DNA from: Bacteroidota bacterium
Lineage (GTDB): Bacteria > Bacteroidota > Bacteroidia > Chitinophagales > Chitinophagaceae
Length of the DNA stretch: 5,748 bases
Reading direction: 5' to 3'
NCBI GenBank assembly: GCA_023390215.1
Contig: JAEWDG010000323.1
Span: forward strand, 1-5,748
Of this stretch, positions 1,544 to 5,748 are shown piece after piece. The notes under the pieces are model-generated. The model did no database searches, was not told where the DNA came from, and was given only the letters and a program-made list of their open reading frames with translations. Position numbers and translations under genes: made by a program. Numbering within the stretch: position 1 is the first letter of the stretch; every line of letters starts with the position of its first letter.

Positions 1544-1563
1544 AATTTGAAAATCCTCAAATT
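1544..1563 (+). promoter_or_regulatory. FNR/FixK-type box, distal copy (AATTTGA-N6-TCAAATT)
   Basis: A perfect inverted repeat with 7-base arms, AATTTGA and TCAAATT, is separated by six bases. Its core, 1547-1560, is TTGA-N6-TCAA, the spacing and sequence read by FNR, Anr and FixK proteins. It lies in the spacer after the HNH gene and about 220 bases before the flavoprotein start. No U-tract follows, so a terminator for the HNH gene is less likely. The reader could be the CRP/FNR-like response regulator at 2760-3818 (inference). Confidence 0.5.
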
Positions 1564-1611
1564 ATTGAAGCTACAAACTCCAACAAGCTCCGCCACCCGA
1601 ATTCCTGGATC

Positions 1612-1647
1612 TTCTTGAACATCTTGAACTCCTTGAACCTCTTGAAC
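1612..1647. repeat. 9-bp tandem repeat, four units of NNCTTGAAC
   Basis: Four head-to-tail units end in CTTGAAC: TTCTTGAAC, ATCTTGAAC, TCCTTGAAC, CTCTTGAAC. The last seven bases are invariant and the first two vary. The period is a multiple of three, but no gene with a plausible start runs through it. Arrays of this kind occur between genes in Bacteroidota as I recall them, so it is probably a dispersed simple repeat. Each unit contains a TTGA half-site, and the array lies between the two full TTGA-N6-TCAA boxes. Confidence 0.75.
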
Positions 1648-1717
1648 TCCCAATCCCATCACCCTCAACACTTAACGAAGCCGTCACTTCCCGCACTGAC
1701 CTTATTCATCGAAACCG

Positions 1718-1731
1718 TTGACAGGCGTCAA
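1718..1731 (+). promoter_or_regulatory. FNR/FixK-type box, proximal copy (TTGAC-N4-GTCAA)
   Basis: TTGACAGGCGTCAA is a perfect inverted repeat with 5-base arms and a 4-base centre, an exact fit to the FixK/Anr form TTGA(C/T)-N4-(G/A)TCAA. Its centre (1724.5) lies about 52 bases before the flavoprotein start and about 41-42 bases before the start point expected from the weak -7 element at 1754-1761. That is the position used by CRP/FNR activators that touch RNA polymerase beside the promoter. It is the second such box in one 288-base spacer. Confidence 0.6.
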
Positions 1732-1753: not shown

Positions 1754-1761
1754 TTTCTTTG
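1754..1761 (+). promoter_or_regulatory. Possible -7 element of the flavoprotein operon
   Basis: TTTCTTTG matches the Bacteroidota -7 consensus TAnnTTTG at five of six fixed positions (A replaced by T). No TTG stands at the usual -33 distance; the TTGAC-N4-GTCAA box occupies the region just upstream instead, as would fit an activator-dependent promoter. The implied leader before the ATG at 1777 is only about ten bases. Confidence 0.3.
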
Positions 1762-1776
1762 AATAAATTTTAAGTC

Positions 1777-2259
1777 ATGTTCGGTACACTCGATGCTAAA
1801 ATAATAGAAGATCTGCTCCGCAATCAGCTGATCGGGCGCCTGGGAATCAATGGTAACCCCTGGCCCTATGTTGTACCTGTAAGCTACGCTTACGATGGCG
1901 AATACGTTTACGGCTTTACGCAGGAAGGTACAAAAGTAGACTTGTTAAGGCAACGCCCGGAAGTTTGCTTCGAAGTGGAAGACACCCAGGATATTTCTAA
2001 CTGGAAAACTGTAATCGCCTGGGGAAGATTTGAAGAGTTGCAGGAAACTGCTCTTCGCGAACATGCGATCGATATGCTTAACAAACGCGTGCTTCCTATG
2101 CTCAACAGTGAAACCATGCGGCTTTCGCCTTTCTGGCCTTTCGTGAATAAAGAAGATACTCATGCCTTGCCGGGAGTGGTCTATCGAATCAAACTGGAAG
2201 AGAAAACAGGTCGATACGAGAAAAGCGCAACGCCTTCCCGTTCTTATCCGGCAGTTTAG
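1777..2259 (+). CDS. Pyridoxamine 5'-phosphate oxidase-like flavoprotein (Nim-like, split-barrel FMN-binding)
   Basis: The 160-residue product fits the small FMN-binding split-barrel family that includes nitroimidazole-resistance (Nim) proteins. Family marks in order: LIGRLGINGNPWPYVVPVSY (18-37), where the barrel opens; a YVYGFTQEGTKVDLLRQRPEVCFEVE stretch (from 43) that forms the flavin phosphate site; W82-G83-R84 (AWGRFEEL); and a C-terminal VYRIKLEEKTGRYEK strand. The usual family length is 140-170, so it looks complete. These proteins bind FMN, haem or F420 in the cytoplasm and reduce or sense small redox substrates; the substrate here cannot be named. Many Nim-type proteins have a His near position 48, where this one has T48-Q49. 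The start follows an AT-rich leader without a clear ribosome-binding site, as usual in Bacteroidota. Two FNR/FixK-type boxes upstream suggest control by oxygen or nitric oxide, perhaps through the regulator encoded convergently. The 2304 gene follows after 44 bases. Confidence 0.85.
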   Translation: MFGTLDAKIIEDLLRNQLIGRLGINGNPWPYVVPVSYAYDGEYVYGFTQEGTKVDLLRQRPEVCFEVEDTQDISNWKTVIAWGRFEELQETALREHAIDMLNKRVLPMLNSETMRLSPFWPFVNKEDTHALPGVVYRIKLEEKTGRYEKSATPSRSYPAV

Positions 2260-2303
2260 TGACCACTATCAAAATTTAACCTGTTCAAAATCAGTAATAC
2301 GCT

Positions 2304-2750
2304 ATGACTACACCAATAATTTTGAGTAATCCGCATTTTTCCGAAAAATCGGCTGCGGTTCTCACTGGAATGGAAATACAACTGAAGAAGACGGGAACAA
2401 TCGGAGAGCTGCAAACCTGGTTTAGCAGTCATTACCCTTTTTTGAAAGTAGAGTTTTACAAACGAACCGCAGACCTCACCAACAGGAAAACGTCCAAAAT
2501 TCAAAATGCCGCCGTAACCTTTCAGGAAATTGGTCTGCTTAAAGAAGGTTCGCTTAACATAAGCGACGAACTTACCGTAGGCACCCTTGAAAAATTACTC
2601 CTCGACGAATATGGACTGCGTGCGGAAGTCTTCAGAAACAGCGGTGAGGGCCTCTGGCTGGAAACCACGATGACGGAAGAATGGTCGCTTTCCAAACAGA
2701 ACGAATATGGAAATGAGATCATGCAGCTCTCACGCAAAAAAGCGATCTGA
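2304..2750 (+). CDS. Conserved-looking Bacteroidota protein of unknown function, with a possible internal duplication
   Basis: I do not recognise a named family for this 148-residue protein, although the WLETTMTEEWSLSKQN stretch (118-133) resembles uncharacterised Bacteroidota proteins I recall. No signal peptide, membrane segment or cysteine is visible, so it should be cytoplasmic. Two segments look related: 31-52 (GTIGELQTWFSSHYPFLKVEFY) and 90-110 (LTVGTLEKLLLDEYGLRAEVF), each T-(I/V)-G-x-L, a helix, Y, then a short strand, which suggests two small alpha-beta units. It starts 44 bases after the flavoprotein stop with no terminator between, so it is probably the second gene of that operon and would share its FNR/FixK-type control. 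M23 is a possible later start just before the first repeat; neither start has a clear ribosome-binding site. It converges on the response-regulator gene, with nine bases between the stops. Confidence 0.75.
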   Translation: MTTPIILSNPHFSEKSAAVLTGMEIQLKKTGTIGELQTWFSSHYPFLKVEFYKRTADLTNRKTSKIQNAAVTFQEIGLLKEGSLNISDELTVGTLEKLLLDEYGLRAEVFRNSGEGLWLETTMTEEWSLSKQNEYGNEIMQLSRKKAI

Positions 2751-2759
2751 TCGTCTCAC

Positions 2760-3818
2760 CTAAAATAACAGGTTTTTCAGCTTATCCGGATTGGATATCC
2801 GGATCTTACCCGCGCTGATCTCGATCAATTTTTCCGCCTTAAAATCACTCAATGTTCGGATCAGGCTTTCCGTTGCCGTTCCTATATAATGCGCAATGTC
2901 TTCTCTTGAGATATCGATGGGGTTATTGCCCGCATCAGCATTGTATTTTTGATTCAGATCCACAAGTGCTTTCGCAACACGTTTGCGTAAAGAACTGTAC
3001 GCGAGATTAACCAGGCGCTCCTCCTTTTCTTTTACATTTTGTGTAATGATCCGGATGAATTTGGTCGCAACGTTCATGTCCGTATAGATCATATTTTGAA
3101 AATCCTCTTTAGGAATATGAATGATCTCGGCATCTTCCAGCACAACCGCAGAATCATCATAGTTCTTGTCTTCGATCAATGCCGGATACCCTACAAAATC
3201 TCCGGGGGTGAAAATGTCGATGATATAGTCTTTACCATCTTCATGCGTTTTCACCGCTTTTACTTTTCCTTTGGTGATATAATACAGATATTTAGGTCGT
3301 TTGCCCTCCTGGTATAATACCTGCTTTTTCGCGTAGTTTTCGATATCATACTGATCCCCTAGTCTTTCGATCAGGCCCGAATCTTTTACATCTTTTAAAA
3401 ACTCATGCAGACCCTGCTGGCTCAACCCATAAGGCTGTTGCAGCACTTCGGCTTTTTTAAGCCGTACTTCGATGGCACTCAACAATTCAATGTCCTCAAA
3501 TGGTTTGGTTACATAATCGTCCGCGCCCATTTCCATCCCTTTACGCAAATCACTTCTTTCTGTTTTCGCTGTAAGAAAAATGAAAGGAATATTCTGGGCA
3601 TCCGGATTTTTTTTCAGCAGATGCAACACGCCGTAACCATCCAGCTCAGGCATCATGATATCACAAACAATAATATCCGGCTTTTCTTTCAGTGCTTTCT
3701 CCACTCCGACCTTTCCGTTTTCAGCGGTCAGGGTCTGATATCCTGCCAGCTCTAAAATTTCCGCGGTATTCTCGCGGATATCTGTATTGTCGTCGATTAC
3801 TAAAACAGTTTTTGCCAT
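2760..3818 (-). CDS. Response regulator: receiver domain fused to a CRP/FNR-type sensor and helix-turn-helix
   Basis: The 352-residue protein joins three modules. Residues 3-120 are a receiver with the acidic pair D9-D10, phospho-acceptor D53 (IIVCDIMMPELDG), T83 and K105 (TKPF), all intact. Residues about 148-262 are a cyclic-nucleotide-binding-like barrel (LYQEGKRPKYLYYITKGKVK, then FTPGDFVG). Residues about 272-345 are a Crp-type helix-turn-helix (ISREDIAHYIGTATESLIRTL). E317 and R321 match the recognition-helix Glu and Arg that CRP and FNR use to contact TGA half-sites. The barrel lacks the cAMP-contact Glu and Arg of E. coli CRP (Y211 and D222 stand there), and the only cysteine is C52, so neither cAMP nor an FNR-type iron-sulfur cluster is expected; phosphorylation of D53 is the likely switch. 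It starts one base after the kinase stop (TAA-C-ATG), implying coupled translation with its cognate kinase. Stop is TAG at 2762-2760. Confidence 0.93.
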   Translation of the reverse strand: MAKTVLVIDDNTDIRENTAEILELAGYQTLTAENGKVGVEKALKEKPDIIVCDIMMPELDGYGVLHLLKKNPDAQNIPFIFLTAKTERSDLRKGMEMGADDYVTKPFEDIELLSAIEVRLKKAEVLQQPYGLSQQGLHEFLKDVKDSGLIERLGDQYDIENYAKKQVLYQEGKRPKYLYYITKGKVKAVKTHEDGKDYIIDIFTPGDFVGYPALIEDKNYDDSAVVLEDAEIIHIPKEDFQNMIYTDMNVATKFIRIITQNVKEKEERLVNLAYSSLRKRVAKALVDLNQKYNADAGNNPIDISREDIAHYIGTATESLIRTLSDFKAEKLIEISAGKIRISNPDKLKNLLF

Positions 3819-3819
3819 G

Positions 3820-5052
3820 TTATCTGGTGATTGGGATTGTAATAGTTACGGTAGTTCCCTGGTTGATGTCGCTGTCAATTTCCACTTTCCCATGCATTAG
3901 CTCGGTGAACCGCTTTACGATATGAAGCCCCAGGCCTGTTCCCTGAATATTTACGGCATTTGCTCCCCGGAAAAAACTTGAGAACAAATGTACCTGATCT
4001 TCTTTTGAGATACCAATTCCCTGGTCGGAAACCTTAATTTCTGCCTGGTCTGATTCTACTGATGCACGCACCTCCACTGTTTTATCCTCATCAGAAAACT
4101 TAATGGCATTTGTTACCAGGTTAACCAGCGCATTTTTCAGTAATTTTCTGTCAGCGGAAACCTCCGGATTTCCCCTAAAATCGAGGCTGATCTTCTGGCC
4201 TTTTTTTAATAACCCGGATGTTTCCTCTACCAGCTCATGAAGGAATTCTTCGAGATTAAACACAGATGGATTACATTCAACCTTTCCTTCATCGAGCTTA
4301 CCCAATGAAAGAAAATCTTCCAGGATCTCGTTTAACTGGCTTACCGAATTTTTGATCTTATTAATATGACGCTGCCGCTTATCCTGGTCTTCCGTGTTGG
4401 TGTATTTTGATAAAAGTGAAGCCGAAGATAAAACCGTACTCAATGGCGTTCTGAATTCATGGGAAGCCATGGAAACAAATCTTCCCTTGATCTCATTCAG
4501 TTCCTTTTCTTTGGCCAGGGCTTCACTCAATTCCTGCTGGGAACTCTGCAGTTTTTCAAGGGCCTCCCGGAGTATCAATGTTCTTTCTTCAACTTTAGCT
4601 TCAAGTTCAGTATTGAGTTTCTTAACCTGATCGGTAATATGTTCCAGCTTATGTTGCTGGTCAAGCATCGCCTGTTCAATCTTTTTTCGTTGTGTGATAT
4701 CGACGATAAAAGCGATCACGAACATCTCTCCGTCTCTTTCATAGTGACTCAGGCTAACTTCCACAGCCAGCCACTCTCCATTTTTCTTCATCGCGTAGAG
4801 GTCACGCCCATGACCCATACGGCGATTGGAAGGGTGTTCAACAAATTGCTCACGAAGTTTAACATGGTGCTGTTGCTGCGGGCGGGGGATGAGGATCTCA
4901 ACCGACTTACCAATGATCTCATCTTCTTCATACTGAAACATTCTCCGTGCAGAAGGATTTATAAGAATAATAGACCCTTTCGTATCAGTGAGAATAATGC
5001 CTTCGGTTGCATTATCAAAAAGCGAAGTGAGATGTGCGATGTGCCGGTTCAT
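3820..5052 (-). CDS. Soluble PAS sensor histidine kinase, FixL-like PAS
   Basis: The 410-residue kinase has no signal peptide or membrane segment, so it senses an internal signal. Residues about 4-122 form one PAS domain, ending in the DITQRK linker. A coiled coil follows (about 124-190, LEHITDQVKKLNTELEAKVE). Then come the H-box SHEFRTPL with phospho-acceptor H198, N-box N311 and N315 (NLVTNAIKF), DQGIGI (343-348) and GTGLGL (371-376); the catalytic core is intact. The PAS segment 56-101 aligns without gaps to rhizobial FixL: PRP-QQQHH with H63 at the haem-ligand His position and GHGR with R83 at the oxygen-sensing Arg, 20 residues apart as in FixL. However, R78 stands where FixL has a hydrophobic pocket residue (I215), and this PAS type is also common without haem, so haem binding is possible, not shown. 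It should phosphorylate the regulator encoded next. It lies 64 bases after the RIC gene, with a possible own promoter. Confidence 0.93.
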   Translation of the reverse strand: MNRHIAHLTSLFDNATEGIILTDTKGSIILINPSARRMFQYEEDEIIGKSVEILIPRPQQQHHVKLREQFVEHPSNRRMGHGRDLYAMKKNGEWLAVEVSLSHYERDGEMFVIAFIVDITQRKKIEQAMLDQQHKLEHITDQVKKLNTELEAKVEERTLILREALEKLQSSQQELSEALAKEKELNEIKGRFVSMASHEFRTPLSTVLSSASLLSKYTNTEDQDKRQRHINKIKNSVSQLNEILEDFLSLGKLDEGKVECNPSVFNLEEFLHELVEETSGLLKKGQKISLDFRGNPEVSADRKLLKNALVNLVTNAIKFSDEDKTVEVRASVESDQAEIKVSDQGIGISKEDQVHLFSSFFRGANAVNIQGTGLGLHIVKRFTELMHGKVEIDSDINQGTTVTITIPITR

Positions 5053-5084: not shown

Positions 5085-5123
5085 TAGCTAACCATTTACG
5101 GGGAATTAAAATCGGGTTAGTTA
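5085..5123 (-). repeat. Inverted repeat in the RIC-kinase gap
   Basis: TAGCTAACC (5085-5093) and GGTTAGTTA (5115-5123) are inverted copies matching at eight of nine positions, 21 bases apart. The right arm covers the RIC stop codon (TAA at 5119-5117). As RNA it would form a stem just after the RIC gene, followed by an A/U-rich stretch, so partial termination between RIC and the kinase, or an operator, are both possible. Weak evidence for either. Confidence 0.3.
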
Positions 5124-5748
5124 ACGGCAGAATGGGGAAACCTATCCAAAAGAATTTCTTCCAGAAATATCAGATCGAGGATCCTGGATTCCAGTTCCTT
5201 CAACAGTGAAAATGCTACGCGATGCGAAGTGCAGGCAGTATCATCAAAGAGGTATTCGTTAGAAACAGAACGCATTTTACGCAACACAGAAACCAAGTAA
5301 GCTTTTTTATTGCCGAAACCGGCCTTATACTCTTGTATACAATTATGTTCAGCATCTAATCTTGCGTAAATCTTACGATCTTGATCAAGGTAACCGGTTA
5401 AAGATGTTGACAGTTCCTGAACCAAAGGTTCGAGCGCTTCCAGAAACTTAAATTTTTTACGATGACCGGCTGCAAAATTTTCAATTTCTGAAAGGATATG
5501 CGGGAGTTGATCCTGCAGATAAACATGATAAATTTCGCGGATGTATGCCATCAGGAACTCAGTTGACCAGTTAAACACAGACCTTAGAAAAACGGATTGA
5601 AGCGCGCTTGTTTCCAGCGCAACTTCGCGTAGAAGATCGTGATGATCAATGCCTGCATTCCCGCACACCATTTCCAGCGGCCATTTTCCACCGCAACAAT
5701 AATTAATTGCGTGTCGTTTGAAAACTGCAGCACTGCGATAGTCTTCGC
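5117..5748 (-). CDS. ric: RIC (YtfE/ScdA-like) iron-sulfur repair protein homologue, 5' end beyond the window, di-iron ligands partly lost
   Basis: RIC proteins restore iron-sulfur clusters damaged by nitric oxide or peroxide. The reading frame stays open to the window edge, giving 209 visible codons; the ATG at 5671 is internal, because the residues before it form the ScdA_N motif (AAVFKRHAINYCCGGKWPLE), with the diagnostic Cys-Cys pair at visible codons 17-18. Only about 10-15 residues should be missing, judged from the position of this motif in E. coli YtfE (220 residues). The rest follows the hemerythrin-like domain: YH (codon 74), AAGH (95), AEH (134) and ACTSHR...LLKELE...LEE. Compared by eye with YtfE, ligands H84, H105, H160 and E208 have counterparts (H74, H95, H134, E196), but H129, E133 and H204 appear as G118, Q122 and L192. 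The centre may be mononuclear, altered or absent. It is the first visible gene of a RIC-kinase-regulator run on this strand. Confidence 0.85.
   Translation of the reverse strand, partial: EDYRSAAVFKRHAINYCCGGKWPLEMVCGNAGIDHHDLLREVALETSALQSVFLRSVFNWSTEFLMAYIREIYHVYLQDQLPHILSEIENFAAGHRKKFKFLEALEPLVQELSTSLTGYLDQDRKIYARLDAEHNCIQEYKAGFGNKKAYLVSVLRKMRSVSNEYLFDDTACTSHRVAFSLLKELESRILDLIFLEEILLDRFPHSAVN

Follow-up and report, generated by a model that had tools for sequence, protein, structure and literature searches.

The flavoprotein gene in this stretch of Bacteroidota DNA and the small conserved gene that follows it are each preceded by a tandem of two dyads 22 bp apart and, at a fixed distance downstream, a -7 box. 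The reading we favour, with a probability of about 0.7, is that the neighbouring CRP/FNR-type response regulator binds both tandem promoters as two stacked dimers and would activate the flavoprotein and small genes when a predicted oxygen-sensing kinase reports low oxygen. Comparison of related loci and genomes, at the level of sequence, shows the motif, the 22-bp spacing, the distance to the -7 box (a box whose mapped position we take from one published study), the concentration at promoters and around regulator genes, and the kinds of genes downstream.

Two predicted tandem promoters in the window

The window, i.e. the whole stretch of 5,748 nucleotides that was analysed, contains a tRNA-Phe gene (177-250), an HNH endonuclease gene (718-1488), a gene for a flavoprotein of the pyridoxamine-phosphate-oxidase type (1777-2259, plus strand; Pfam PF12900) and a gene for a small conserved protein with no Pfam family (2370-2750, plus strand; 126 residues from the in-frame ATG at 2370, according to an alignment of relatives). 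The minus strand encodes a response regulator (2760-3818), a FixL-like PAS histidine kinase (3820-5052) and a RIC/YtfE-like iron-sulfur repair protein (5117-5746; below the NCBIfam cut-off), the start of which lies beyond the window, as does the promoter of this RIC-kinase-regulator operon. The HNH protein resembles a phosphorothioated-DNA restriction endonuclease model below its cut-off (52 bits, cut-off 180). A plasmid search with the flavoprotein returned 206 records, all with less than 60% identity.

Two full architectures, each consisting of a dyad pair and a -7 box, are present on the plus strand, compared to 0 in 1000 shuffles of the window. Promoter 1, the predicted promoter of the flavoprotein gene, comprises a distal dyad CTGACCTTATTCAT (1696-1709, plus strand), a TGA-N6-TCA exactly 22 bp upstream of the dyad at 1718 and centred at about -63.5; a proximal dyad TTGACAGGCGTCAA (1718-1731, plus strand), with the core TGAC-N4-GTCA and a centre at about -41.5; and a -7 box TTTCTTTG (1754-1761, plus strand), with one mismatch to TAnnTTTG, at the conserved 29-base offset. 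Transcription is predicted to start at 1766, upstream of the ATG at 1777. The dyad pair is kept in L081/L093. An imperfect 14-base inverted repeat (86% complementary) pairs 1702-1715, at the distal dyad, with 1753-1766, at the -7 box of promoter 1, and may be due to chance.

Promoter 2 consists of a distal dyad GTGACCACTATCAA (2259-2272, plus strand), a proximal dyad CTGTTCAAAATCAG with one mismatch (2281-2294, plus strand) and a perfect -7 box TAATTTTG (2317-2324, plus strand), with a predicted transcription start at 2329. Among relatives, the closest found is G001, which contains locus L005. It carries both genes in this order, with protein identities of 57% and 54%, and retains the two dyad pairs and the two -7 boxes at identical spacings; its promoter 2 reads GTGATGAGTATCAA and CTGTTAAAAGTCAG at the two dyads and TATTTTTG at the same offset. 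The sequence-only reading had proposed the flavoprotein operon as a candidate direct target of the neighbouring two-component system. By comparison the flavoprotein gene holds up as a likely direct target, but the details of the operator proposed for it do not, and the operon appears to be split into two transcription units that each have a separate tandem promoter.

The longer open reading frame of the small protein spans 2304-2750, so that the -7 box of promoter 2 falls inside it; the box at 2317 requires a moved start, a point we count against our explanation. Relatives of the small protein start at or near Met 2370 in the alignment, which, together with the position of the box, makes 2370 the likely start rather than 2304. 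The locus genes were called with a simple ORF caller, and 29 of 132 predicted transcription starts fall after the called start codon, indicating that the called starts are sometimes too early. The structure model of the small protein is confident (pLDDT 92.8). It has no PDB match at an E-value of 0.001 or better, and the top-ranked structure is a chain of a di-ubiquitin complex (E 0.089); one of 25 relatives matches Pfam Ubiquitin_4 (at 0.0021). These matches thus give only a weak hint of a beta-grasp, ubiquitin-like fold. The small-protein family, without a Pfam name, recurs next to the regulator in many relatives.

The tandem operator and its distance to the -7 box

To explore the operator in related loci, we collected 80 loci around regulator orthologues (1.34 Mb) and scanned their intergenic DNA for all 4-base half-sites paired with their reverse complements across spacers of 0-10 (2816 forms). 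The window was excluded from the palindrome scan, the density, profile, spacing and -7-offset statistics and the pattern counts; the mismatch tally accompanying the pattern counts files it under group B, and the target tally includes it. The first-ranked palindrome was TGAT-N4-ATCA, with 114 occurrences against 6.9 expected, followed by TGAC-N4-GTCA (35 against 1.3), ATGA-N6-TCAT (60 against 6.1) and CTGA-N6-TCAG (36 against 2.4). These palindromes are one motif, MTGAY-N4-RTCAK, with the core TGAY-N4-RTCA. Its 248 intergenic core sites are distributed over 73 of the 80 loci. Core sites have densities per kb of 2.99 in divergent and 1.45 in codirectional intergenic DNA, 0.088 in coding DNA and 0.117 in convergent intergenic DNA. 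The outer position of the dyad is A in 40%, C in 35%, T in 16% and G in 8%, T being disfavoured.

The dyads occur as tandems with a single spacing. In the 80 loci, TGA-N6-TCA pairs were found 106 times at 22 bp, whereas the counts for all other spacings between 12 and 60 range from 0 to 5. A perfect intergenic tandem is present in 62 of these loci, a number that rises to 70 when one mismatch is allowed. In whole genomes the perfect tandem outnumbers its reversed-control pattern by 147 to 2 (20 genomes), 773 to 19 (147 genomes, family of G002) and 292 to 28 (296 genomes, phylum of G002). Perfect tandems reach 79 per Mb around the regulator, in the 80 loci, compared to 1.3 per Mb in the 20 whole genomes. 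Comparison thus shows, from sequence, an operator made of two MTGAY-N4-RTCAK-like dyads 22 bp, or two helix turns, apart. Two results count against our explanation: the 22-bp pair is present upstream of only 5 of 12 flavoprotein relatives, with all 12 rows counted, and Chitinophaga skermanii has no genome-wide excess of single dyads (41 against 48 for the control). The latter genome carries 4 tandems.

The distance from the operator to the promoter is also constrained. Of 219 site-gene directions, 132 have TAnnTTTG, with at most one mismatch, 29 bases downstream of the proximal-dyad centre, the next-best offset accounting for 10. In PMC9723704, the TAnnTTTG -7 box is mapped at -12 to -5 in Flavobacterium psychrophilum, and the 29-base offset would accordingly place the dyad centres at -41.5 and -63.5. 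Full architectures number 177 at the 29-base offset and 1-14 at eight other offsets tried. In the class I/II nomenclature, an activator with its proximal site at -41.5 is a class II activator, and the proximal dyad here, measured from predicted starts, is predicted to lie at that position.

The sequence-only reading had located the operator elsewhere, in two exact TTGA-N6-TCAA boxes at 1547-1560 and 1718-1731. A scan of the whole window confirmed both boxes, the lack of a third and the 7-base arms flanking the first. Their improbability depends on the region considered: at least two boxes occurred in 0.02% of 5000 shuffles of the 288-base spacer (1489-1776), a figure limited by the spacer having been picked after the fact, but in 4% of 1000 dinucleotide shuffles of the whole window (mean 0.277, against 2 seen). 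As an operator, the pair stands only in part. The 1718 box belongs to the conserved element, its core TGAC-N4-GTCA matching the enriched operator and its overlooked partner CTGACCTTATTCAT (1696-1709) lying 22 bp upstream, but the 1547 box does not. With TGAA...CTCA the latter departs from the TGAY-N4-RTCA core and was rejected; TTGA-N6-TCAA is absent from the 250 bases upstream of the orthologous flavoprotein gene in L081, the closest relative found. Across the 80 loci, the intergenic excess of TTGA-N6-TCAA is only mild, with 13 occurrences against 5.5 expected and a rank of 63 among the 2816 forms, and the unbiased palindrome scan together with the position profile ruled out this form as the operator. 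The same spacer also contains a 9-base direct repeat, TCTTGAACA, in about four copies (1613-1650); one-mismatch TTGA matches at 1615-1646 arise from this repeat and were discarded as dyads.

Candidate reader and signal

The regulator scores above the cut-offs for PF00027, PF13545 and PF00325, which places its output half, a cNMP-binding-like domain with a Crp-type HTH, in the CRP/FNR superfamily. Its named relatives are mostly from Chitinophagaceae and other Bacteroidota. The receiver residues D10, D53, T83 and K105 are kept in all 19 aligned regulators. E317 and R321, which had been taken as a sign of TTGA reading, are indeed invariant in the same 19 proteins, but CRP has E and R at the same aligned positions, so these residues do not point to TTGA. 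Beside them, T316 and I320 occupy what we take to be the places of CRP Arg180/Gly184 and FNR Val208/Ser212, and may explain the preference for an outer A or C. CRP E72 and R82, presumably the cAMP-pocket residues, align with Y and D and are thus not kept. The only cysteine is C52, in the receiver; with none in residues 124-352, an FNR-type Fe-S cluster is not expected in that half. The AlphaFold model of the regulator (mean pLDDT 53) was set aside.

The neighbouring regulator is the likely reader of the dyads, judging from co-occurrence, clustering and sites at its own operon in relatives. Regulator-positive genomes of the family were defined by an E-value of at most 1e-60, with at most 14 candidates scored per genome there and at most 7 in the phylum sample; given these limits and many incomplete genomes, some regulator-negative genomes may be misfiled. 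In the family, 96 of 107 regulator-positive genomes and 15 of 40 regulator-negative ones carry at least two tandems; the corresponding numbers in the phylum sample are 29 of 43 and 26 of 253. The link is not one-to-one: a perfect tandem is missing from 3 of 107 (family) and 11 of 43 (phylum) regulator-positive genomes, and the regulator-negative genomes just counted have two or more. The DNA read upstream of the RIC-kinase-regulator operon of the closest relative contains no tandem with at most two mismatches; self-control of the regulator is therefore seen only as a pattern in other relatives.

One alternative accepts the operator and assigns it mainly to a separate, receiver-less CRP/FNR-type protein, leaving the two-component regulator in the position of neighbour, target or additional reader. 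Three loci (L108, L110 and L112), from genomes that yielded no fused regulator, encode receiver-less CRP-type proteins (open frames of 239-259 residues) with a near-identical recognition helix, GTATE-x-x-IR, and a tandem operator adjoins each gene. G090, G103 and G110, in which the regulator was not found, carry 8, 5 and 6 tandems and receiver-less GTATE-x-x-IR proteins with a tandem adjoining the gene, and an L112-type protein is present in 3 of the 8 regulator-negative phylum-sample genomes with at least three tandems that were checked (it was not seen in the other 5). The best CRP-type proteins of G084, G123, G138 and G141, which are regulator-negative and tandem-free, carry other helices. 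These patterns suggest that the operator follows the helix type, with exceptions both ways: G125 and G050 have the GTATE-x-x-IR helix yet no tandem, and two G090 CRP-type genes with other helices (L126 and L136) adjoin one. The latter genes indicate that CRP-type genes beside tandems may simply be targets. Against a receiver-less main reader, tandems track the two-component regulator across genomes and cluster around its gene, and five regulator-positive genomes with L112-type proteins lack a perfect tandem, so that an L112-type protein alone does not predict the operator. We regard this assignment as unlikely, at roughly one chance in five.

The predicted targets bear on the signal. Tandem sites with at most one mismatch number 152, with 221 directons within 400 bp, the window included. 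Families found downstream include the regulator itself (in directons of 44 loci), the CcoN-FixO fusion of cbb3 oxidase (28), a FixI-type ATPase (28), the kinase (25), the small-protein family (21), RIC (20), Rrf2 (12), NosZ (12) with cytochrome c (12), fasciclin (10), universal stress proteins (10), FixS (9), Hsp20 (6), hemerythrin (3) and the flavoprotein (3). G059 carries 29 tandems; in the five regions read, which cover 18 of them, the sites precede a regulator/FixI pair, the cbb3 fusion, a radical-SAM gene, RIC, kinases and stress proteins, and some have no nearby called gene. The regulon is thus likely to be far wider than the flavoprotein, with cbb3 oxidase, NosZ, RIC and others among its predicted members.

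An adjacent, alignable kinase is present in 50 of the 80 loci; in 19 of the other 30, the opposite-strand neighbour is FixI-like (N-terminus, judged by eye). The best solved relatives of the PAS domain of the window kinase are FixL, then DosP and other haem sensors (13 of 17 matches, one of them listed as yddU, a name for DosP). H63 aligns with the FixL histidine that is presumably the haem-binding residue, and is kept in all 50 adjacent kinases, a likeness to the axial histidine by alignment. R83 aligns with the distal arginine of FixL and is kept in all 26 kinases of subfamily A, to which the window kinase belongs, and in 6 of 24 of subfamily B. In subfamily B (L050-L080), 18 of 24 kinases carry Leu, Met, Phe or Ile in place of the distal arginine yet retain the haem histidine, which hints at an altered ligand preference. 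These alignments point to a kinase that would sense oxygen via a haem PAS domain.

An alternative with the same operator and regulator is that the signal would be redox stress or nitric oxide, the latter being a ligand that haem PAS domains are able to bind. RIC, Rrf2 and NosZ are among the targets, and the distal arginine of FixL is missing from those 18 kinases of subfamily B, all of which would suit such a signal. Oxygen limitation is the better fit to cbb3 oxidase, FixI and FixS, which are among the commonest targets, and to the retention of both FixL residues in 26 of 26 adjacent kinases of subfamily A. Nitric oxide or redox stress as the signal is improbable in our estimate, much like a receiver-less main reader. 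Repression by the tandem dyads is very unlikely: position alone does not establish the sign of control and some CRP-family proteins repress, but the sites as a rule avoid the DNA downstream of the -7 box and keep a fixed upstream place, with the proximal centre predicted at -41.5.

In the mechanism we favour, activation by the neighbouring regulator in response to low oxygen, falling oxygen would be registered by the haem-PAS kinase through H63, and the active kinase would phosphorylate the receiver of the regulator at D53. The CRP/FNR-like half of the phosphorylated protein would then read [A/C]TGA[C/T] half-sites. Two dimers would sit on one face of the DNA, with the proximal one in the role of class II activator. 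This control would extend to cbb3 oxidase, N2O reductase and nitrosative-stress repair, and many relatives would also place the operon of the system itself under it.

Relation to known systems and significance

The proposed system would work like FixL-FixJ-FixK of rhizobia with the last two proteins merged. It shares with that cascade a haem-type PAS kinase with the aligned histidine and distal arginine, as well as cbb3 oxidase, FixI and FixS as targets. However, the receiver is here fused to the cNMP-binding domain and Crp-type HTH, whereas FixJ combines a receiver with a LuxR-type output and acts with a separate FixK, and the operator is a tandem with a 22-bp spacing. Because a separate FixJ and FixK are absent, we do not file it as a member of that system. 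E. coli-type FNR, which reads TTGAT-N4-ATCAA, has the same TGA-N6-TCA dyad spacing, a related HTH fold and anaerobic-type targets. The present system differs in the outer base (A or C, not T), in having two dyads as a rule and in lacking cysteine in the CRP-like half; the low rank of TTGA-N6-TCAA and this lack of cysteine set it apart from FNR.

The predicted place of the proximal dyad recalls class II promoters of E. coli CRP. In contrast to CRP promoters, most sites here have a second dimer site, predicted at -63.5 and a constant 22 bp upstream, and the -33 element has apparently been replaced; the system is not CRP, since the cAMP residues are lost. The receiver-less CRP-type proteins of L108, L110 and L112 are closest in their helix and in the tandem beside the gene, and differ in having no receiver. 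Among the matches listed in a search mainly of the open literature, none described this operator or reported that Bacteroidota have a FixL-like system, and an earlier description is possible.

More tentatively, and with somewhat less than even odds, Bacteroidota may run oxygen and N2O respiration with a distinct switch, in which a haem-PAS kinase phosphorylates a fused FixJ-FixK, the receivers lock two adjacent CRP-like dimers together on the 22-bp tandem, and this phosphorylation-driven pairing on a single DNA face gates activation. The tandem code would be shared with receiver-less paralogues, which are perhaps ancestral.

The logic of FixL-FixJ-FixK would appear here in merged form, and the arrangement raises a biophysical question, namely why two dimers should be spaced by precisely two turns of the helix. 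The comparison gives an exact and testable operator for low-oxygen control across a large family of bacteria: two dyads, 22 bp apart, at predicted centres of -41.5 and -63.5. With an operator this exact, regulons may be read from genomes, including nosZ for N2O removal, cbb3 oxidase, nitrosative-stress repair and several unknown proteins.
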